A DNA stretch of 39,513 nt from Candidatus Nezhaarchaeota archaeon WYZ-LMO8 (GTDB lineage Archaea > Thermoproteota > Methanomethylicia > Nezhaarchaeales > WYZ-LMO8), in the NCBI GenBank assembly GCA_004347965.1, contig QNVF01000007.1:1-39513 (forward strand), written 5' to 3'. Position 1 is the stretch's first letter, and each line of letters starts with the position of its first letter. Position numbers and translations under genes: made by a program. The notes under the pieces are model-generated. The model did not search any database. It worked only from the letters and a program-made list of their open reading frames with translations, and had not been told where the DNA came from. Shown in pieces: positions 15,315 through 37,581 of the stretch.

Positions 15315-15932
15315 TTAAACATCCACGCCCCTCTCACGAATGCCCCTTACAACCTTACCTATTAAGATGAAGTCATTAATCAGCATATTCTTCAATTTAG
15401 GATTATAGAGCCCAGCAGCTGGGTGATAGGTGGGTACGACTAGGAGGCTAAGATCTTCGAAGTTTATTTTAAATACTTGACCTCTAACAGTTGATATTCT
15501 CCCCCTATACGTCTTTACTCCACCTTTGAGAAGTATGTAGTTTGTTGAGTATCTGCCGAGACACACAATTAACTTGGGCTTTATAACTGCTACTTGCTTA
15601 TCAAGGTAGGGAGTACAGGCATCAACTTCATCAGGCAGGGGGTCTCTATTACCTGGAGGTCTACACTTCAAGATATTGGTTATGAAGACCTCATCTCTCC
15701 TAAAACCAGCCATTTCTAGGAGTTTATCTAGAAATTTTCCAGCAGCTCCAACAAAGGGTCTTCCCTCCACATCCTCATTGTACCCCGGGGCCTCCCCTAC
15801 GAGCATGACGTCAGCATATACGTCTCCTTGACCTGGAACTGGCTTCATCCTTGAAGACCATAACCTACACTTTCTACAACTAGCTACCTCCCTCGCTACC
15901 TCTTCTAATATCCTGACCCTCTCGTTTTCCAT
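15315..15932 (-). CDS. Family 4 uracil-DNA glycosylase
   Basis: The 205-residue enzyme has all type 4 (thermostable UDGa) features. Four iron-sulfur cysteines are at residues 19, 22, 90 and 106, the motif GEAPGYNEDVEGRPFVGAAG (46-65) forms the uracil pocket, and HPAAGLYNP lies near residue 170. It removes uracil formed by cytosine deamination, an important repair step at high temperature. The ATG gives the expected N-terminus. It is divergent from the recombination-type operon starting at 16115, with a 182-base spacer. Confidence 0.95.
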   Translation of the reverse strand: MENERVRILEEVAREVASCRKCRLWSSRMKPVPGQGDVYADVMLVGEAPGYNEDVEGRPFVGAAGKFLDKLLEMAGFRRDEVFITNILKCRPPGNRDPLPDEVDACTPYLDKQVAVIKPKLIVCLGRYSTNYILLKGGVKTYRGRISTVRGQVFKINFEDLSLLVVPTYHPAAGLYNPKLKNMLINDFILIGKVVRGIRERGVDV

Positions 15933-16114: not shown

Positions 16115-16750
16115 ATGATAAGGACCTTAGGTGGGACTTTGTTCTTAAGAAGAGGAATGATGAGTTTAAGAATAATATTATTTCTGCTATTATTACTATT
16201 GCTATCAACCATACTTCCTTGGCTCCTCATACCTATAGCCGCTTACATTGCTTACAAAGTTGGGAGATGGCTCTACAAGCTTGTTAAGAGCCTTAAATGG
16301 CCTAAGGCAGGAGGGAAGAGGAAGGAGCGCGTGAGCAGCGTTTCAACGGTTGGTGACATTCAAGTTTATGAAGTTGAAGGTATTGGACAAGCTCTCGTTG
16401 TGAAGAACGGTCTCGAAGCCCTAGGTTTAGGATGCTTAGAGGTAAGGTCTCTTGGTGGAGGTCGACTTGCTGAGCTTCTTAGTGCTATCGATGCGACGGT
16501 GAAGACAGGATTCGAGAGTAGCTTAATAGTTTCTAAGAGAACGTCGGGGGATGCTTGCTTCATGATCATGATCAAGGTCCGTAAGCCAATGATTAAGGAC
16601 TTCCTGGAGACGGCCAAGGAGGTCGTAGATGACGTGGTTAAGGGGCTTACAGCAGCCATGGGAGCAATTAAGGCTAGGTTGCCGAGGTCTGAGGTTCACG
16701 TATTGGAGTTCGATGACCTCTTAAAAGCTATTAGAGGTGTTGTAGCGTGA
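16115..16750 (+). CDS. Membrane-anchored protein of a HerA/RadA-paralogue operon
   Basis: The 211-residue protein has a leucine-rich hydrophobic hairpin near its N-terminus (about 18-50, with LLLLLLLSTILPWLLIPIA) followed by basic residues. A soluble alpha/beta domain (about 75-210) follows. The pattern LAELLSAIDATVKTGFESS, then a SLIVSKRTSGDACFMIMIKV strand pair and a long helix, resembles the N-terminal domain of VirB4/CedB-type ATPases. Together with the next gene, which overlaps by four bases (GTGA), it would equal the length of a single such ATPase, so this may be its split N-terminal half. The start may also be the ATG at 16157 or 16160. The family assignment is inference. Confidence 0.7.
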   Translation: MIRTLGGTLFLRRGMMSLRIILFLLLLLLLSTILPWLLIPIAAYIAYKVGRWLYKLVKSLKWPKAGGKRKERVSSVSTVGDIQVYEVEGIGQALVVKNGLEALGLGCLEVRSLGGGRLAELLSAIDATVKTGFESSLIVSKRTSGDACFMIMIKVRKPMIKDFLETAKEVVDDVVKGLTAAMGAIKARLPRSEVHVLEFDDLLKAIRGVVA

Positions 16751-18030
16751 GCACCATAGTGGAGGTTGGGTGGATTGTTGATGGGGATGCGGATGCGCTG
16801 GTGGACACATTGAGGATCGATCTCTCTAACGTACATTTGCTAACGGTCAGCGGCGCCTGGAGCTTAAACGCTACTTGCCACTTATTGGGTCAAGTAGCGG
16901 GCTCAGTGAATTTAGTAGTAGTATCTCCTTACACAGCTGAGGGGCCTCAATGGCTTCGGCACTTGAGCCTTGGCTTGAACGCCTCGTTCAACCCCTTTAA
17001 ACCCGTTGGAGACAAGCTAGCATACTCACATTTCATTGCCGACATCTTCAAGGGAGCCTTTAGTCTGAACAATGCGCAAACCTCAGCTTTGAGGAGAGCG
17101 CTGATGAGAGCCTATCTAAGCAGTAAGGAGCCAACCGCTGAGGACGTTCTATCCGCATTAGAGATAGAATCAACCGAACTAACAAACCGAGATTCCATCG
17201 AGCTGATAGAGATCGTGGAGGCGATGTGTAGAGGTAGACTTGGAGCTGCGTGTACTAATCGATTAGAGCTCACGGATCTTCAAGCCATAATCTCGATGTC
17301 TGAGCTGCCACCAAGCTATGCCTCAATTCTATCCATGGCTATGTTAATGTATTTGGTGAAGAATGGCTTTAAAGGGGTCGTAGTACTATGCAACCTCGAT
17401 GTTCTCAGAGAATTCATTGGTTCCGCTTGGAGAAATTTCGTATACCTGGTTAATAAAATGAAGGTCGAACCTTTGACAATCATCGCCTGCACGAGCAGCG
17501 CATCGTTCACGCCACTAGAGTTGAGGACTAGAGCTCACATGATTATTGTCGGCTCACCTTTAACTCCTGAAGATGCCAAGTACGTTAGTGCTATGGTTGG
17601 CCGAAAACGTCTTAAGCTACTCAATAGCAAGGAGAGGTTCGCCTATAACCTCATTTCCTCAAGCGGAGTCATCGAGATACCGCTTGAAGAGACAGTGAAG
17701 ATGCATGTGGAAGAGGAGCTGAAAGCTCTTCTGGAAGCTCCTCGATCAATGCTTCACGCAAAGCTTGGCAATAAAGCTAAGATGGCATACGATATCTTAA
17801 GCTTCTTAAGGGATGGAGCGTCGACGAGAGACTCCGTGATATCTTATGCAATGCATAGGCTCGACGTATCATCGTTGGAGGCCTCAAGGCTTGTTAACAC
17901 ACTACTGATCCATGGACTTGCAAGTGAGGTTGTTGGGGCTGACGGTAAGTATTGGCTCAAGATTACAGTTCGAGGGCTCAACGCTTTAGAGGAGCTTGAA
18001 GCGTTAGAGGGGTGGTTGACACGAGAATAG
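16747..18030 (+). CDS. HerA/VirB4-like protein lacking ATPase motifs, with C-terminal winged helix
   Basis: The 427-residue protein follows the HerA/FtsK-like order. NVHLLTVSGAWSLNAT (28-43) sits where a P-loop GATGSGKS should be, but the lysine is absent. LVVVSPYTAEG replaces the DPHG strand, and FNPFKPVGDKL (81-91) fits the usual LNPL turn. LNNAQTSALRRALMRAYLS matches the helical insertion. GVVVLCNLD (210-218) sits where Walker B should end in DE, and the last strand reads TIIACTSSASFTPLELRTRA. A winged-helix-like domain occupies 340-425. It therefore looks like an inactive structural subunit. GTG start overlaps the previous gene. The homology is by pattern only. Confidence 0.7.
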   Translation: MSTIVEVGWIVDGDADALVDTLRIDLSNVHLLTVSGAWSLNATCHLLGQVAGSVNLVVVSPYTAEGPQWLRHLSLGLNASFNPFKPVGDKLAYSHFIADIFKGAFSLNNAQTSALRRALMRAYLSSKEPTAEDVLSALEIESTELTNRDSIELIEIVEAMCRGRLGAACTNRLELTDLQAIISMSELPPSYASILSMAMLMYLVKNGFKGVVVLCNLDVLREFIGSAWRNFVYLVNKMKVEPLTIIACTSSASFTPLELRTRAHMIIVGSPLTPEDAKYVSAMVGRKRLKLLNSKERFAYNLISSSGVIEIPLEETVKMHVEEELKALLEAPRSMLHAKLGNKAKMAYDILSFLRDGASTRDSVISYAMHRLDVSSLEASRLVNTLLIHGLASEVVGADGKYWLKITVRGLNALEELEALEGWLTRE

Positions 18031-18350
18031 AGAGAAGGGGTAGCTCATTAACTTGGGTTGTGGGAGTATCGTGTAAAGGGCTCTATACAGTCTCATTAAC
18101 ATTGTATAAATCAAGTAGTGGTTGGAGGGTGAAGAGAGAGTTAAGATTGAAGATTAAAAGAGCAGAGGATGAGAGGACCTTATTCATTGAGGATTACAGC
18201 CTACCAGAGTTCCAAGCCATTTTAGAGGCCTTCCAGTCCATGACGTCAGAGATCGACGTCGATGAAAGTGCTCGACGTCTTACCCTCGCTCTTAGAGCAT
18301 CAACGATCATCAACCTTCTCGTTCAAGAGCTCGGAGGTGTCTCTAGGTGA
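18012..18350 (+). CDS. Uncharacterised small protein in the HerA/RadA-paralogue operon
   Basis: This 112-residue protein is not recognised. It begins with beta-strand-like sequence (SLTWVVGVSCKGLYTVSLTL, then basic WRVKRELRLKIKR). An acidic helix follows (PEFQAILEAFQSM), then another helix containing ARRLTLALRASTIINLLVQ. The GTG start lies 19 bases inside the preceding gene, and its own stop overlaps the start of the RadA paralogue gene by four bases. It must therefore be made together with both. Its size and fold pattern suggest an adaptor or single DNA- or protein-binding domain, but that is only a guess. Confidence 0.75.
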   Translation: MVDTRIERRGSSLTWVVGVSCKGLYTVSLTLYKSSSGWRVKRELRLKIKRAEDERTLFIEDYSLPEFQAILEAFQSMTSEIDVDESARRLTLALRASTIINLLVQELGGVSR

Positions 18351-19309
18351 AGGGTGAAGTGAAGCTTGAGGACCTAGAGGGTATAGGACCCAAAACCGCA
18401 GAAAAACTTCGAAGCATTGGTATATGCTCAGCTAAGCACTTATCGCTTTTCAACGTTGATGAGCTCCTCAACTTAGTTGACGTCGATGAGAGGACTTTAA
18501 GGAGAGCTCTAGCTCACGCTAGAAGCATTTTCATGCCGTTAAGGGCTATTAAGGCCTTAGATAACTTGGCTCAAAAGTCTCTACCGCAATTAACAACTGG
18601 TGTCAAGAGCATAGATCTCCTCCTCAATGGTGGTCTAAGGCCTAGAGCAATCTACGAACTGTGTGGGCAACCAGGAGCTGGGAAGACTCAGCTTTGTCTA
18701 CAGCTATCAGTTACAATTCAGCTCTCAGCCAATAAGGGAGGTATTGGAGGTAAATGCTACTTCATGGATACTGAGGGAACCTTCAGCCTCAGCAGGGTCA
18801 AGGTCATAGCCGAGAGGTTTGGGCTCGACTCCGAGTACGCGTTAAGCAACATCTACGTCATAGACGTCATAAACACGGATCATCTACTTCAAGTGATAAC
18901 CTCAGACCTCGTTAGGGCTGTGGAGGATGGAGTGAAGTTAGTGATCGTGGACTCTTTGATGTCGAGGTTTAGAACTGAGTATGCTGGAAGAGAGTCTTTA
19001 GCTTTAAGGCAGAGTAGACTTGGTTATGCGCTTGACTGGCTTGTAAGGATAGCTAGGCTCTATGAGGTCATAGTGATCGTAACAACTCCAGTAATGGAAG
19101 TGCCAGTAGCATTTGTAAGCATAAATGAAAGACTAAGACCTGTTGGAGGCACGACATTAGCTCACGCTACGACTCACAGATTCTTCCTGACCACTAGAAG
19201 TGAAAGGGGCGTGCTTAGAGGTACCATGACCGTCCTAGATAGTCCATCTCTACCTCATGGAGCTATAGCAAGCTACTTGATAACCGACAAAGGGATTGAA
19301 GATGCGTAA
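18347..19309 (+). CDS. RadA/Rad51-family recombinase paralogue
   Basis: The 320-residue protein has an N-terminal helix-hairpin-helix (LEDLEGIGPKTAEKLRSIGI, 8-27). The recombinase core has Walker A GQPGAGKT (107-114), DTEGTF (141-146, catalytic Glu143), Walker B LVIVDS (198-203) and GRESLALRQSRL (214-225). It departs from true RadA. The loop-2 segment reads VTTPVMEVPVAF instead of the usual VTNQVMARPD, losing the glutamine that senses ATP. The polymerisation FxxA motif before the core is not clear (IFMPLRAI). It is likely a mediator-type paralogue with ATP binding kept. GTG start overlaps the upstream gene; a SWIM gene follows directly. Confidence 0.88.
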   Translation: MKGEVKLEDLEGIGPKTAEKLRSIGICSAKHLSLFNVDELLNLVDVDERTLRRALAHARSIFMPLRAIKALDNLAQKSLPQLTTGVKSIDLLLNGGLRPRAIYELCGQPGAGKTQLCLQLSVTIQLSANKGGIGGKCYFMDTEGTFSLSRVKVIAERFGLDSEYALSNIYVIDVINTDHLLQVITSDLVRAVEDGVKLVIVDSLMSRFRTEYAGRESLALRQSRLGYALDWLVRIARLYEVIVIVTTPVMEVPVAFVSINERLRPVGGTTLAHATTHRFFLTTRSERGVLRGTMTVLDSPSLPHGAIASYLITDKGIEDA

Positions 19310-19631
19310 TAGAGAGCCTCGTATGAACGCTAAGATCTTAGACGATCGCATAATAGAGAAGCTCTTAGCGCTAATGGAGAACAAAGGATCTTCCTGGATC
19401 AAGAGGAGCATGAAGAGGGTGCATGATGTTTATGAATGCGACAGGAATACATGGATCGTTAGAGGGAGAAAAAGTCTCGGAGATGAAGAGACAATATACG
19501 TGGTTGAGTATGATGAAGAAAAAGGAAGCTTCAAGTGTACTTGTCACCAACCCTACAAACCCTACGCTAGGAGTAGGAGACGAGCATGCACTCACGTGGG
19601 TGCATGTCTCTTTCATCACATATTTTTCTAA
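19302..19631 (+). CDS. SWIM zinc-finger protein
   Basis: The 109-residue protein ends in a SWIM motif, CxCx(14)CxH, formed by Cys79, Cys81, Cys96 and His98 (FKCTCHQ, then RRRACTHVGACLFHH). A helical region with TWIVRGRKSLGDE and a two-stranded IYVVEY element precedes the motif, as in SWIM proteins. SWIM domains mediate DNA or protein contacts, and the eukaryotic Shu2/SWS1 SWIM proteins act with Rad51 paralogues. Finding it next to a RadA paralogue fits that theme. ATG 19302 has AGGGA seven bases ahead; a TTG at 19296 would add two residues. It overlaps the RadA paralogue gene by eight bases. Confidence 0.88.
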   Translation: MRNREPRMNAKILDDRIIEKLLALMENKGSSWIKRSMKRVHDVYECDRNTWIVRGRKSLGDEETIYVVEYDEEKGSFKCTCHQPYKPYARSRRRACTHVGACLFHHIFF

Positions 19632-19655: not shown

Positions 19656-20048
19656 GTGGGAAGATCTTATCTAGTAGTTGGCGACGGCAACAAACCCTTA
19701 CTGAAGTCGCTGGAGATCGCAAAGGGTAAGAGGATTGTGGTCTCTGACAAGCCATTAGAGGTTGATGGTTTCATCGAAATTTTAGATATATTTAAACAGT
19801 TCAATCAAATAGCTTCATTACCTCTAGAGCTTTCAGAGAACGATAGTCTTGTACTAGACCTGTATGCTCACGTCTCTAGACTATCTGCTTTAAGTAGGTA
19901 CGCTAGCGTGAAGTTGTACTTGAGGTTGTGCAGGATGTTGATTGCGTCAGCTAAAGCTAAGTGCTTTAATATCTACATTAATTGTAATAGGAGCTCGAAA
20001 CTTTATGTGAAGCTAAGGGCTACTGTTGACGAGGAGGTGCCTTGCTAA
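19656..20048 (+). CDS. Uncharacterised small alpha/beta protein after the SWIM gene
   Basis: The 130-residue protein is not recognised by family. Its pattern is strand, helix, strand (SYLVVGDGNKPLLKSLEIA, then KRIVVSDKPLE). A second strand LVLDLYAHVSRLSAL follows, then a long helix and FNIYINCNRSSKLYV. This recalls a stripped RecA/Rad51 core with no Walker lysine motif and a Walker-B-like LVLD strand, comparable in spirit to the inactive Rad51-like subunits of the yeast Shu complex. The GTG start has GAGGT about eight bases ahead. Its TAA overlaps the cofE ATG by one base (TAATG). The RecA-fold idea is speculative. Confidence 0.7.
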   Translation: MGRSYLVVGDGNKPLLKSLEIAKGKRIVVSDKPLEVDGFIEILDIFKQFNQIASLPLELSENDSLVLDLYAHVSRLSALSRYASVKLYLRLCRMLIASAKAKCFNIYINCNRSSKLYVKLRATVDEEVPC

Positions 20049-21344: not shown

Positions 21345-22592
21345 CTAGAGCTCCTTAACTTCAAATCCTCTCTCTGCTAAAGCTCTTTTAACTTCTGTTG
21401 AACCAACTTGAACTGCTAGAACTGCATGCCCACTAGGCCACTCAGATAGGACATCTAATGCCTTGGACTTGAGCTTAATGGTTACCTGAGTTCTGCACAA
21501 GTTCTTAAGTTCAAGCTGACTTCTATCGACATAGCATTCGACTACGTAGGCATTTTTGAGTTGATGATCACACCCAATCATGACCGCTCTTCCTCGTCTT
21601 ATTGGTACGTCGACAGCAACGCTCTTACCAGTCTCAAAGTGGCTCTTTAACTTCAAATCACCTTCGTTAGAAGCTAGTGTAATTGGTGCAGTACAGTGAG
21701 CTAATATCAATGTGTCTTCTGATTCTACTGCGGCTATGTTGCCCATGAATGGTTGTGTGAGCTCCCTTATTGTCATCATGCATGCTGCTGCCTGAACATC
21801 GGCTTCGCATACTCCTAAAATTTCATTTGCAGAAAGTAGGGATATGGCTAAGCAAGGAGTGACGTTAATTCTCTTTATGACCTCGAAACAATCAATGGTA
21901 AACACGTCACATTTAAATCTTTTAAGGACATCATTTACAGCTTCCTTCAAAGCCAGGCTTAGTTGAAGCTCCCGCATTGGCACATCAACCTTGCCTCTAA
22001 ACCATGAGAAGAACTTGTGGATAAGCTCGGTATCCTGCTTATGCTTTTCAAGATATCTTTCAAGCTCCTCCTGCGTTAAGTGTTTGACTTTGACCTTGAA
22101 CCTTCGCGCTATGATTGCTGGACAAGTAACATCAAAGGTTCTCGGAGAAACCTCGCCCAAGATAGTCATGCTTTTCTTAAAGTCAGGGCCTTCACTCTTA
22201 ATCTTGATCTTGCCGTTAATTAAATCAATTGTTGCTAGTTCAACATCAAGTCCTAGACGTCTGATACGAGAACGAGCTTCTAAACTCGATGGAAGTGAAT
22301 TACTCTCATCGTGGGCAATGAGTGTAATGGTGGAGTTACACCACTTCGCTACTTCAACTGCTGATTTAGATGTACCACCAGTAAGATGTAATACGGCTAA
22401 CGGTCCATCAAGGTCCAGGATCCTATGTTTAATAGCCCATACCTCCTCGATTGATGATACTGGCTCAGCTACCATGTTTATTTCAAGTCCCGAATCCTCC
22501 ATGGCCTTTAAGATCCTCTTTAGGATTATTGTTTGCTGCATTTGTGGGTGAACCCGAGAGACGAGAGCAATAACGAATACCTTTCTGCTCAT
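21345..22592 (-). CDS. L-fucose/L-arabinose isomerase-like protein
   Basis: The 415-residue protein resembles the COG2407 group related to fucose and arabinose isomerases. The N-terminal part has Rossmann-like strands with LAVLHLTGGTSKSAVEVAKW. The C-terminal half holds candidate metal ligands in FTIDCFEV, GVCEADVQAAACMM and LILAHCTAP. The substrate is unknown, and many archaeal members are not true fucose isomerases. The ATG is preceded by GGAGG and an AT-rich TATA-like site near 22632-22643. No sugar-uptake genes lie beside it, so a sugar catabolic role is not supported by context. Confidence 0.72.
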   Translation of the reverse strand: MSRKVFVIALVSRVHPQMQQTIILKRILKAMEDSGLEINMVAEPVSSIEEVWAIKHRILDLDGPLAVLHLTGGTSKSAVEVAKWCNSTITLIAHDESNSLPSSLEARSRIRRLGLDVELATIDLINGKIKIKSEGPDFKKSMTILGEVSPRTFDVTCPAIIARRFKVKVKHLTQEELERYLEKHKQDTELIHKFFSWFRGKVDVPMRELQLSLALKEAVNDVLKRFKCDVFTIDCFEVIKRINVTPCLAISLLSANEILGVCEADVQAAACMMTIRELTQPFMGNIAAVESEDTLILAHCTAPITLASNEGDLKLKSHFETGKSVAVDVPIRRGRAVMIGCDHQLKNAYVVECYVDRSQLELKNLCRTQVTIKLKSKALDVLSEWPSGHAVLAVQVGSTEVKRALAERGFEVKEL

Positions 22593-32941: not shown

Positions 32942-34957
32942 ATGAGTGATGCTTCAGGCAGAAAAGACGTGTTTTTAAGGGCCCTTTACATTGCCCTTTG
33001 CCTGCTACTGATATGCTACGTTATGTGGTATGCTGGTACTCTCTATATTGAGAGGGAGAGGGCTGCTACATTGTACTTAGCGTTTTCGTGTATGATTTTG
33101 CTTCTTCACTCACTCATGGGACGCAATAAACTGTTCAACCTAAAGAGTCCGCTATTAAATAAAGCATTGTCCTCGATCTTCATCTTATCCGTAATCATGA
33201 GTGGCATCTACTTCTTCGCTGAGTACTACAACATAATATACTACAGGATGGGTATAGGGAATGTGTATGACATAATCTTCGGGGCCATCATGCTGATAGC
33301 AGTGCTTGAGTGTTGTAGAAAGGATGTTGAGAAATGGTTGCTCATAGTAGCGCTAGCCTTCATGGTCTACGCGCTCTTAGGTCCCTATATACCCCATCCG
33401 CTCTTAGGTCATAGGGGGCTGGATGTGCCATCCCTTGTAAGATCTCTTTCAGCAGACATACCATTAGGCATCTTTGGGCTGCTGACTCAGATAGCATTCA
33501 CATGGATTTCAGCATTCATAATATTTGCAGCATTCCTCAGAGCTCTTGGAGGCTACGACACGCTCTTCAGCCTAGCAAGATACATGGTCACGAGAAGCCC
33601 GTATATGGTACCTCAAACTGGCGTCGTTATGAGCGCCCTCTTCGGAATGTTTAGTGGTAGCGCACCTGCAAACGTTGCTGGCACAGGCGTCTTCACGATA
33701 CCCATGAATAAACGCGTTGGGGTTCCAGCATACTTTGCAGGTGCAATAGAAAGTGTGGCTTCAAGTGGAGGTTTAATAGTCCCACCAGTCATGGGTGCAG
33801 CAGCCTTCATTATGGCATCACTTCTAGGGGTGCCCTACATATACGTATGTGCTGTCGCTGTGATCCCTGCTATAATTTACTATTTGGCTGCGTCGATCGC
33901 CGTATTTTGCATTACGCGTCAATACTTAGATGTTCAAAAAGCTCAAGCCCTCTTAAAAGAGACTGCTGCTGTAAGGGCTATCGACATTGTAAGGATTGGC
34001 ATACCGTTTTTCCTTGCACTAGCAATCCTCATATTCCTGATGGCTTACTATAGAATGGATCCATTGCTTGCATGCTTCCGAACAGTAATAATATACTTAC
34101 CATTCGCCTTCGTTTACAACTACTTAGTGGTGTTTAGAAGAACCTCAAAAAGTGGATCGCTCAAAGAGTACCTTAAGGATTTTGCAAAACGCCTTCGTGA
34201 TTCGATAGAGGAAGGTGGTTCGCTCGCCGCAAATGCTGGAGTTATGTTAGCTACCATCGGCATAATCACAGGCGTCTTAACAGTTACGGGCTCCGCTCTA
34301 AAGTGGTCGATGGCCCTCGTACATCTAGTAGGCTACAATCTGGTGCTTCTGGTCGTAGCTGCATGGATCATTACCTTTCTCCTAGGATTCGGAGTTTCAG
34401 CTACAGGTGTATACGTAATAGCAATATCCATACTGCTTCTGCCTTTCGGGAAGTTAGGCGTTGAACCTATTGTAACTCACTTCTTCGTGTTCTGGATGGC
34501 AGTCCTCTCCGCCATAACACCGCCTGTTGCAATAGCTTGCGCCACAGCTGCGAAGATAGCTCAAGAAAGCTTCGGCAAGATCTCATGGGAGTCCGTAAAG
34601 ATAGGGCTACCGCTATTCATGTTATGCTTCTCGTTCTTCGTGTGGCCAGAGCTGCTAGTGTGGTCTTCAGAGACCATTGCGGCAGCCATACTATTAATCG
34701 TGGCTGCTATGTCGATGCCGATAGCCATATATGGTGTTGGAGCTTTAAGAGATGTCGTTAAATCGAGGACCCTTCAATACGCCATTAGAGTGTTGCTGGG
34801 AGTGACGTCATTACTCATATTCCTTGGAAGGCCACTGATCCCGATATACATATCGTACTTAATGGCTGCATTAGCAGCCGCCATAGCAATCTATCTAATA
34901 GCTTTTGAGGTCAGAGCCTACGGACTACGAATTAGGGCTTTAGGCTTCACAAGATGA
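32942..34957 (+). CDS. TRAP transporter fused permease (TAXI-associated)
   Basis: The 671-residue protein has about sixteen or more membrane helices. Four N-terminal helices correspond to the small Q subunit and the remainder to the large M subunit. Typical M-subunit motifs are GMFSGSAPANVAGTGVFTIP near residue 230, ESVASSGGLIVPPVMGAAAF near 270, and AITPPVAIACATAAKIA near 520. Together with the TAXI binding protein it forms a sodium- or proton-driven uptake system for organic acids. ATG 32942 has GGTAGGG upstream. A separate promoter for the next genes lies in the following gap. Confidence 0.94.
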   Translation: MSDASGRKDVFLRALYIALCLLLICYVMWYAGTLYIERERAATLYLAFSCMILLLHSLMGRNKLFNLKSPLLNKALSSIFILSVIMSGIYFFAEYYNIIYYRMGIGNVYDIIFGAIMLIAVLECCRKDVEKWLLIVALAFMVYALLGPYIPHPLLGHRGLDVPSLVRSLSADIPLGIFGLLTQIAFTWISAFIIFAAFLRALGGYDTLFSLARYMVTRSPYMVPQTGVVMSALFGMFSGSAPANVAGTGVFTIPMNKRVGVPAYFAGAIESVASSGGLIVPPVMGAAAFIMASLLGVPYIYVCAVAVIPAIIYYLAASIAVFCITRQYLDVQKAQALLKETAAVRAIDIVRIGIPFFLALAILIFLMAYYRMDPLLACFRTVIIYLPFAFVYNYLVVFRRTSKSGSLKEYLKDFAKRLRDSIEEGGSLAANAGVMLATIGIITGVLTVTGSALKWSMALVHLVGYNLVLLVVAAWIITFLLGFGVSATGVYVIAISILLLPFGKLGVEPIVTHFFVFWMAVLSAITPPVAIACATAAKIAQESFGKISWESVKIGLPLFMLCFSFFVWPELLVWSSETIAAAILLIVAAMSMPIAIYGVGALRDVVKSRTLQYAIRVLLGVTSLLIFLGRPLIPIYISYLMAALAAAIAIYLIAFEVRAYGLRIRALGFTR

Positions 34958-35049: not shown

Positions 35050-36678
35050 ATGGTTAGGCTCTATGAGTATCAGGGGAAGCAGATATTGAAAGATAATGGC
35101 GTTCCAGTACCTGAAGGCTATGTGATCTTCAGAGCAAATGACGTGGCAACGGTCTTGGATAGAATAGGTAAAAATGTTGCGATAAAGGCTCAGTTGCTTA
35201 CGACTGGGAGGCTTAAGGCCGGCGGTATAAGGTTCGCCTCGTCAATTAATGAAGTTGTATCCATAGTAAACGACATGATCGGTAAGGAGATTAAGGGCAC
35301 GCGTGTTGATAAGGTCTTAATTGAAGAGAAGCTTGAAATAGTCAAGGAGTTCTTCATTAGCATTACGGTGTCAGATTCCTACAAGATCAAGGGCCCCATC
35401 ATCCTTTTTAGCACAGAAGGCGGCGTTAACATTGAGGAGGTTGCGGAGAAGCATCCTGAAAAAATACTCGCAATGCCAATAGACTACCTTAAAGGTATCG
35501 ATAGGGATGACGTCAAGAAGGGAATCATGAGATTAGGCGTGCCAGAAAACTTGGCTGAGCAGCTCGCTGACTTTGTAGCAAAGCTTTACGATGTGTTTAA
35601 GAAGTACGATGCTCACACGGTTGAGGTCAACCCACTAGTCTTGACGAAAGATGGAAGGCTCCTAGCAGCTGACTGCAGGATAACGATTGACGATAGCTCA
35701 ATGTACAGACACCCTGAACTGGGCATTGAGGTTCCACGCGATATTGCAAGGCCGATAACTGAGTTTGAGAAGATGGCATGGAAGATAGAGGAGAGCGATT
35801 ATAGAGGTGTGTGCTACTTCATGCAGTTTGTTAGTGACGTTAACGAGATTGCGAGAGGTGGCTACATAGCTTTCCATGGTATAGGTGGAGGAGCTTGTAT
35901 GTTAGCTTCCGAGGTTCTTCTTAGGCGAGGCTTCAAACTGGCGACTTACCTTGACACGAGTGGAAACCCAACAGCATTTAAAGTATATCGGGGCATGAAG
36001 GTCTCTCTGTCACTGCCTAACATTGATGGATACTACTTGGCTGGAGCAGTAATAGCTAATCAAGAGCAATGGTATCATGGATTCGCCATAGTCAAAGCAT
36101 TTAGAGAGTACTCAAAGTACAAGCCGGGATTTCCAGTTGTAATATTGATAGCCGGTAATAAGGAGGCTGAAACCCATAGGATAATAACGGAAGGCTTAAA
36201 GGATGTTCCGCTGAGGTGGGAACTGTATGGGAGGGAGAAGGTTCTCGATATAGACTTCATAACCGATAGGTTCTCTAAATTAGTCGAGGGTTACAAAGGA
36301 GGGGATGCGAAAGCTGTTGGAAGCGTAATGGATTTCGTTGAGGCGAAAGGACCATCTGAAGACGAGTTAAGGGACTATTTGTGGTTCAAGACGTCGACTG
36401 GAGGAGAGGTGTACGTAAACCTTAAGAGGTGTGTGGCACCCAACTGTGGCTTTGCCTGCGTTAAGGCGTGCAGGTGGATGGGTACCGGGGCTCTTAAGGT
36501 GGAGAGGGGCAAGCCAAGCCTTGCTTCTAGAGACCCTGAATCTCTACGAAGATTGTGTAGTGAGTGTCTTGCTTGTGAGTTCTACTGCATGGTCAGAGGA
36601 AGCAATGCCATAAGGATAGTAGTCCCAGTGCAAGGTCTAGTTGACGTTGTAAGCAAGTACTTACATCTGTATAGGTGA
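35050..36678 (+). CDS. ADP-forming CoA ligase beta subunit fused to an iron-sulfur domain
   Basis: Residues 1-410 follow succinyl-CoA synthetase beta: YEYQGKQILKDNGVPVPEGY, an ATP-grasp domain with FSTEGGVNIEEVAEKHPEKI and HTVEVNPLVLTKDGRL, then the ligase domain GYIAFHGIGGGACMLASEVL. The glycine loop LDVGGGA of true SucC is altered to LDTSGNPTAF (302-310). Residues about 455-542 are extra, with cysteines at 461, 466, 470, 474 and 503, 506, 509, 513, enough for two [4Fe-4S] clusters. The next gene encodes the alpha subunit. Malate-, citrate- or succinate-type substrates are possible, and the lyase gene that follows favours malate or citrate. Confidence 0.88.
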   Translation: MVRLYEYQGKQILKDNGVPVPEGYVIFRANDVATVLDRIGKNVAIKAQLLTTGRLKAGGIRFASSINEVVSIVNDMIGKEIKGTRVDKVLIEEKLEIVKEFFISITVSDSYKIKGPIILFSTEGGVNIEEVAEKHPEKILAMPIDYLKGIDRDDVKKGIMRLGVPENLAEQLADFVAKLYDVFKKYDAHTVEVNPLVLTKDGRLLAADCRITIDDSSMYRHPELGIEVPRDIARPITEFEKMAWKIEESDYRGVCYFMQFVSDVNEIARGGYIAFHGIGGGACMLASEVLLRRGFKLATYLDTSGNPTAFKVYRGMKVSLSLPNIDGYYLAGAVIANQEQWYHGFAIVKAFREYSKYKPGFPVVILIAGNKEAETHRIITEGLKDVPLRWELYGREKVLDIDFITDRFSKLVEGYKGGDAKAVGSVMDFVEAKGPSEDELRDYLWFKTSTGGEVYVNLKRCVAPNCGFACVKACRWMGTGALKVERGKPSLASRDPESLRRLCSECLACEFYCMVRGSNAIRIVVPVQGLVDVVSKYLHLYR

Positions 36679-36684
36679 TGATGC

Positions 36685-37581
36685 ATGGCGATATTAGTGA
36701 ACGAGAAAACAAGGGTTCTTGTGCAAGGTATTACTGGTAGAACCGGGGCCTTCGGTACGAGAGCTATGCTGGAGTACGGTACAAAAGTCGTTGCGGGGGT
36801 CACTCCTGGTCGAAGAGGAGAGAATGTGTGGGGCGTTCCAGTGTTCAATACCGTCAAGGAAGCCATAGATGAGGTGGGCCCCATAGATCTTAGCGTGACG
36901 TTCGTACCTGCTCCTCAAGTGAAGGATGCCGTAATTGAGGCTCTAGAAGCAGGGATCAAAACTATAGTCGTACCTGCAGAGAGGGTTCCCTTACACGACA
37001 TCCTCGCGATGGTGGGCCGAGCAAAAGCTTTGAATGCCAGGATTATTGGTCCAGGTTCTCTAGGTCTCATAAGCCCTGGCAAGGCATCGGTTGGATGGAT
37101 AGGTGGTGCTAGAGAGCTTATTGAGGATTCTTTTAGGCCAGGTGACATAGGAGTCATCTCTAGAAGTGGTGGAGGAGTGACGACCATTTGTTGGCTACTA
37201 TCTCAAGCTGGGCTGGGTATAAGCACGGCTGTCCATGTGGGCACAGAACCTGTAGTAGGTACGACAGGTGCTGAGCTCTTACGTGAGTTTCAAAAGGATG
37301 ATGAAACGCATGCGGTAGTAGTTTTTGGCGAAGTTGGCGGCCTAATGGAGCTCGAGATGGCAGAGATCATGAGGAAGGGGGAGTATGAAAAACCAATAGT
37401 CTTCTACATAGCAGGAAGGATGTTGCCGTCGGGAATGCGTTTCTCTCACGCTAGCGCCATTATAGAGAGAAGATCGGATACGGCTGAGTACAAAGAGAAG
37501 CTCTTAGAGGAAGCAGGTGGCTTCATTGCGAAGAGGCCCATGGAGATAGCTGAAATCGTCAAGAAGATATTAAGGAGGTAG
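36685..37581 (+). CDS. ADP-forming CoA ligase alpha subunit (SucD-like)
   Basis: The 298-residue protein has the SucD fold. VLVQGITGRTGAFGTRAMLE (11-30) binds CoA, IGPGSLGLISPGKASVGW is at 121-138, ISRSGGGVTT is at 158-167, and the phosphohistidine lies in FSHASAII (His255). It starts six bases after the beta-subunit stop, so the two form one enzyme. Malate-CoA ligase (MtkAB) and citryl-CoA synthetase are close relatives of succinyl-CoA synthetase, and sequence alone cannot separate them. The operon context with a CitE-type lyase favours a substrate that yields a cleavable hydroxyacyl-CoA. Confidence 0.9.
   Translation: MAILVNEKTRVLVQGITGRTGAFGTRAMLEYGTKVVAGVTPGRRGENVWGVPVFNTVKEAIDEVGPIDLSVTFVPAPQVKDAVIEALEAGIKTIVVPAERVPLHDILAMVGRAKALNARIIGPGSLGLISPGKASVGWIGGARELIEDSFRPGDIGVISRSGGGVTTICWLLSQAGLGISTAVHVGTEPVVGTTGAELLREFQKDDETHAVVVFGEVGGLMELEMAEIMRKGEYEKPIVFYIAGRMLPSGMRFSHASAIIERRSDTAEYKEKLLEEAGGFIAKRPMEIAEIVKKILRR

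Follow-up and report, generated by a model that had tools for sequence, protein, structure and literature searches.

A HerA/VirB4-fold protein without a Walker A motif, encoded with a membrane protein and a RadA paralogue in archaea, is a candidate recombination scaffold

We examined if an open reading frame of Candidatus Nezhaarchaeota archaeon WYZ-LMO8 encodes a HerA/VirB4-like protein whose nucleotide-binding motifs are gone, and what such a protein could be retained for. The reading frame lies within a stretch of 39,513 nucleotides (contig QNVF01000007.1, positions 1 to 39,513), hereafter the window. The original prediction, made without database searches, was that the segments of a HerA/FtsK-like ATPase are present in order with the Walker motifs replaced, and that the product serves as a structural scaffold or as a partner relying on another ATPase such as the neighbouring RadA paralogue. 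The gene and the segments referred to below are as follows.

16747-18030, + strand: gene 2, dead HerA/VirB4-fold protein with a C-terminal winged helix (427 aa, GTG start)
16852-16875, + strand: degenerate Walker A GAWSLNAT (residues 36-43), aligned with GATGSGKS of intact homologues
16924-16944, + strand: SPYTAEG (residues 60-66) replacing the DxxG(E/Y) motif, aligned with DWHGEHS
17014-17250, + strand: helical insertion (residues about 90-168, helices in the model) separating the degenerate Walker A from the degenerate Walker B
17377-17400, + strand: degenerate Walker B VVVLCNLD (residues 211-218), aligned with LFIEEAQ
17749-18024, + strand: C-terminal winged helix (residues about 335-426; H-H-H-beta hairpin-H, pLDDT near 90)

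Gene 2 submitted as a single sequence matched no family significantly in Pfam or NCBIfam, and its homology to HerA was therefore visible only by profiles and structure. A profile of 11 homologues matched VirB4 4ag5 in the PDB (E 2e-4), and hhalign of 30 homologues against intact 605-aa HerA/CedB-like proteins of the same class (Methanomethylicia), which match Pfam HerA models, gave a probability of 99.2% (E 1.4e-19, 313 columns). An AlphaFold2 model was prepared from the window protein and ten relatives, and was of moderate confidence (pLDDT 71, pTM 0.56); in Foldseek its best solved structures included VirB4 4ag6 (E 1.6e-8), HerA-NurA 9x1m (E 1.3e-7), a chain of the R388 type IV secretion system (E 5.2e-7) and HerA 4d2i (E 5.5e-7). 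The HerA/VirB4 ATPase core fold was thus observed both by structure (Foldseek E 1.6e-8 to 5.5e-7, probability 1.00) and by profile-profile comparison, as had been anticipated from the order of segments. The helical insertion, also anticipated, was kept in the model as helices 90-105, 109-125, 131-144, 147-159 and 163-168, mostly of high pLDDT. The winged helix was among the best-predicted parts of the model, and the gene 2 profile also matched the PadR-like winged helix 4ejo (E 0.009). No HAS-barrel was found in gene 2 by Pfam.

The motif positions were set by alignment with the intact 605-aa proteins, and this placed GAWSLNAT, SPYTAEG and VVVLCNLD where the original prediction had put them. 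In the model only three residues separate beta-1 (31-35) from alpha-1 (39-49), which would leave no room for a P-loop; a strand (210-214) stands at the degenerate Walker B. The window's own family has kept neither the Walker A nor DxxG nor the acid of Walker B. One way in which the prediction could have failed was that orthologues would show intact motifs; the Walker A Lys was absent from all homologues (0/34, from many families across the phylum), so that the pattern GxxGxGK[ST] was not met in the gene 2 family, and judged from these alignments motif loss is a property of the whole family and not of one mutated copy. Gene 2 is under purifying selection, with a dN/dS of 0.11 against its closest relative, and its neighbouring genes gave similar values (0.06-0.13). 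This value together with the conservation rules out a pseudogene. The product is most likely without P-loop nucleotide binding and kept as a scaffold, and it belongs to an entire family with this fold that selection has retained although the motor is lost.

The start of gene 2 overlaps the stop of gene 1 by 4 bases, gene 3 overlaps gene 2 by 19 nt, and the genes downstream of gene 2 overlap or sit within 25 bases of each other. The remaining genes of this operon are:

16115-16750, + strand: gene 1, predicted membrane anchor of 211 aa (N-terminal two-helix transmembrane (TM) hairpin plus an alpha/beta domain)
18012-18350, + strand: gene 3, small conserved protein of 112 aa, with homologues in the same slot at nearly all loci
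18347-19309, + strand: gene 4, RadA paralogue of 320 aa (N-terminal HhH, intact Walker A GQPGAGKTQ)
19296-19631, + strand: gene 5, SWIM-type zinc protein of 111 aa (CTC...CTHVGA, fitting CxC...CxHxxA)
19656-20048, + strand: gene 6, small protein of 130 aa that is probably a RecA-like ATPase, shortened and degenerate

The order TM protein, dead HerA, gene 3, RadA paralogue was observed at 30 of the 31 loci with a HerA-like homologue, the exception being a contig end, and the SWIM and degenerate RecA-like proteins often come next; a few of the contigs begin inside the gene run. Gene 1 homologues lie upstream of the dead HerA at nearly all loci. A scan of public genomes, with the RadA-paralogue alignment as query, placed carriers among Candidatus Culexarchaeum nevadense, Culexmicrobium profundum, Ca. 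Methanosuratincola subterraneus, and metagenome-assembled genomes of Methanomethylicota, Thermofilaceae and Geoarchaeota; viral contigs yielded only eight distant RadA-type proteins, 26-35% identical. Genes 1, 2, 3, 5 and 6, each searched as a single sequence, gave nothing significant in Pfam, NCBIfam or PADLOC, and the PADLOC search left a defence-system reading of the operon unsupported. The TM gene, the SWIM protein, the degenerate RecA-like gene and a family-wide change that is mostly Lys to Arg (see below) go beyond the original prediction.

Some loci vary. A Thermofilaceae variant (L131:2715-7487) encodes the TM protein, a short HerA-like protein (386 aa), an unknown 317-aa protein, SWIM, the RadA paralogue and a 174-aa protein that by eye has the look of a PD-(D/E)XK nuclease, without a Pfam match; similar genes of 169-174 aa lie downstream of the RadA paralogue at L135 and L138. 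In three distant operons (L078:7817-8296, L087:7759-8211, L081:2662-3021), genes with an AbrB/MazE-like look follow the RadA paralogue in place of SWIM and gene 6; this look is supported by a weak Pfam match for L078 only.

Gene 4 matched Pfam Rad51 (E 5.9e-60) and has a RecA-type core, with the Walker A and the DNA loops L1/L2 present; Walker A was intact in all 33 RadA paralogues of the operons. A tree of 105 RadA-type proteins put every operon copy into a single 50-member clade (support 100/97) distinct from the main RadA; the remaining 17 sequences of this clade belong to Vulcanisaeta, Thermofilum and relatives in which no HerA-like gene could be recognised. In the FxxA polymerisation motif another residue replaces the Phe in 49 of the 50 clade members and in 17 of the 55 others (kept in 1/50 versus 38/55). 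With its separate clade and replaced Phe, gene 4 does not qualify as the RadA recombinase proper, and the window's genome has its own RadA (G000:C17) separate from the operon. Among near-complete genomes of the class, those without the dead HerA had one RadA-type gene (5/5), and those with it had two or more (15/16); as these genomes are related, the count cannot be read as a probability. Like other archaeal RadA paralogues (RadB, Sulfolobus RadC-type), gene 4 is a RecA-family ATPase beside a main RadA; it differs in its retained N-terminal HhH, its own clade and its replaced Phe, which we take to be differences from the Sulfolobus RadC-type as well. The original suggestion of the RadA paralogue as the likely partner is consistent with its co-conservation and kept ATPase motifs, while a physical scaffold role and reliance upon it are inferences.

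Vulcanisaeta and related Thermoproteales with a RadA paralogue of this clade and no recognisable HerA-like gene (L123, L116-L118, L120-L121) include one cultured species. A third RadA-type copy occurs in the window's family (G002:C2:11766-12695, G005:C1:499807-500736) and was not found in the genome of the window itself.

The motif CxC...Xn...CxHxxA defines Shu2/SWS1 (PMC6316741). Gene 5 carries it, and 8 of the 9 aligned rows have its final Ala; no match to gene 5 was obtained in the PDB or to Pfam SWIM. All 12 strong SWIM matches in the class were inside these operons, and SWIM was found only there. None of this kind was detected in the genomes of group f6 (Methanosuratincola and relatives), and it is missing from several distant operons, so the operon core must work without it. 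Gene 6, which in the class also occurs only in these operons, had no significant match in the PDB. Its homologue in the corresponding position at L137:7203-7826 is longer, retains a Walker A and has weak matches, below curated cut-offs, to RecA-like and other P-loop models; from this, gene 6 is likely, not proven, to be a degenerate RecA-like protein.

At one locus the operon lies directly behind the archaeal end-resection genes: eleven genes on one strand (L199:2435-14523) encode NurA, HerA, Mre11, Rad50, the TM protein, the HerA-like protein, gene 3, the RadA paralogue, SWIM, gene 6 and a C2H2 protein. This linkage was observed in a single genome only. The herA of this run is intact, with a HAS-barrel, and is a separate gene beside nurA, so that L199 has both a HerA of the HerA-NurA type (4d2i, 9x1m) and the dead protein in one gene run. 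The two share the ATPase fold; gene 2 does not qualify as HerA proper, as it has no N-terminal HAS-barrel, no P-loop and no gene partnership with NurA, and an intact HerA-family gene (G000:C23) stands separate from the operon in the window's genome.

The dead HerA fold and its conserved company, in many uncultured archaea, of a membrane protein, a RadA relative and often SWIM, a zinc protein resembling a eukaryotic helper of Rad51, make gene 2 probably a recombination scaffold. Our preferred reading, to which we give somewhat better than an even chance, is that gene 2 is a membrane-tethered HerA/VirB4-fold scaffold for a RadA-paralogue/SWIM complex acting as a recombination mediator. The HerA-like and TM proteins would form a membrane-associated platform holding the RadA paralogue (the operon's one intact ATPase) and the Shu2/SWS1-type SWIM protein, joined in many lineages by a degenerate RecA-like subunit. 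Such a complex might accept single-stranded DNA, whether it comes from resection by HerA-NurA-Mre11-Rad50 or reaches the membrane, and promote assembly of RadA filaments. That the proteins form a complex, that there is a ring or another oligomer (the models are of monomers only), that the whole set is tethered to the membrane and that it works as a mediator are all inferences, as there are no interaction, localisation or activity data. Further points against this reading are the patchy occurrence of SWIM, a resection-gene linkage known from a single genome, a gene 1 model unlike the VirB4 N-terminal domain, the moderate confidence of the models, and the Thermoproteales of the clade (Vulcanisaeta and relatives), which have the RadA paralogue but no dead HerA that could be recognised. 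Archaeal recombination mediators are poorly known; the operon supplies a concrete, testable candidate for a mediator complex and for a link between recombination and the membrane.

Like the Shu complex (Csm2-Psy3-Shu1-Shu2; human SWS1-SWSAP1) and other Rad51-paralogue complexes, the operon combines a SWIM protein bearing CxC...CxHxxA with a RadA/Rad51 paralogue and probably a degenerate RecA-like subunit; unlike them, it is archaeal, encodes its set as an operon, adds a dead HerA/VirB4 protein as well as a TM protein, and comes with no binding data, SWIM and the RadA paralogue being linked by gene adjacency alone. That the operon is an undescribed archaeal counterpart of these complexes, with a dead VirB4/HerA ring as its membrane anchor, is possible, and we propose it only tentatively. 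If true, a Shu-like membrane complex would couple end resection or DNA uptake to RadA loading, and motor ATPases would have been turned into recombination scaffolds. Literature on SWIM with RadA or in archaea, on inactive HerA-like proteins and on SWIM with NurA/HerA did not describe the operon; open-licence papers alone were covered, and an earlier report is possible.

The operon could instead serve DNA uptake or exchange, with the dead HerA/VirB4 protein replacing or capping CedB/CedD/VirB4 at a membrane channel and the RadA paralogue and SWIM receiving single-stranded DNA for integration. We consider this doubtful but a serious rival, because related archaea import DNA through Ced/Ted systems that rely on VirB4/HerA-like ATPases, CedD being made up of TM, N-terminal and HerA/VirB4 domains (PMC11868833); Ted loci contain HerA and Rad50 genes (PMC9905601). 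The fold of gene 2 is closest to VirB4 and a TM gene adjoins it. VirB4 (4ag6, Thermoanaerobacter), CedB, CedD and TedB share with gene 2 the ATPase fold and the helical insertion, and share membrane association with the operon, where it is provided by the neighbouring gene 1; unlike them, gene 2 has no Walker A, no consistent Walker B and no VirB4 N-terminal domain that could be found, and it has a C-terminal winged helix and a RadA paralogue as neighbour. The single-chain plan of CedB/CedD (TM, VirB4-like N-terminal and ATPase domains) is not met, as the TM segment of the operon is a separate gene. The AlphaFold2 model of gene 1 (pLDDT 77) has helices at 8-33 and 35-60 and a ferredoxin-like domain. 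Gene 1 had no significant match in the PDB and no detectable similarity to the CedB-like N-terminus by hhalign, and its model had none to the VirB4 N-terminal domain, which weighs against an uptake role. A CedB/VirB4 protein split into genes 1 and 2 was confirmed neither by hhalign nor by the fold model, the structure models being of moderate confidence (pTM 0.56-0.58).

A second departure from the mediator scaffold would have gene 2 bind nucleotide without hydrolysis through a conserved Arg in place of the Walker A Lys; joined in a mixed ring to an intact HerA-like ATPase, it would sense ATP/ADP. Of the 34 homologues, 26 do have Arg where the Lys would be, several lineages retain DxxG and an acid resembling that of Walker B (DxxG in most homologues outside the window's family), and the same genomes carry intact HerA-like ATPases. 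We nevertheless judge a sensor unlikely, since the glycine-rich loop is shortened or lost and the window's family has neither the Arg, the DxxG nor the Walker B acid; even elsewhere the Walker B acid is kept by only some homologues, and DE only by some distant ones, so that the family lacks the hydrophobic-DE Walker B expected of an ATPase of this branch.

The well-predicted winged helix and the TM partner could also suit a DNA-binding regulator or a membrane anchor associated with the nucleoid; the RadA paralogue would then serve to attach the chromosome or to regulate genes, and not recombination. This is very unlikely, as the nurA-herA-mre11-rad50 linkage, and the Walker A and both DNA-binding loop regions kept by the RadA paralogue, point to recombination. 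That the gene is decaying or resembles HerA by chance, for which only the lack of a single-sequence Pfam or NCBIfam match could speak, is refuted by the dN/dS of 0.11, the conserved operon and the significant fold and profile matches, and hardly merits further thought.

Several neighbours of the operon in the window were recorded. A Type-4 uracil-DNA glycosylase gene (15315-15932, - strand) is divergent from the operon and adjoins it in the window's family. A 415-aa protein without a Pfam match (21345-22592, - strand) is conserved in the two nearest relatives. Farther along the window, a DctM-type TRAP transporter gene (32942-34957) is followed by two ATP-citrate-lyase/succinyl-CoA-ligase-like genes (35050-37581).
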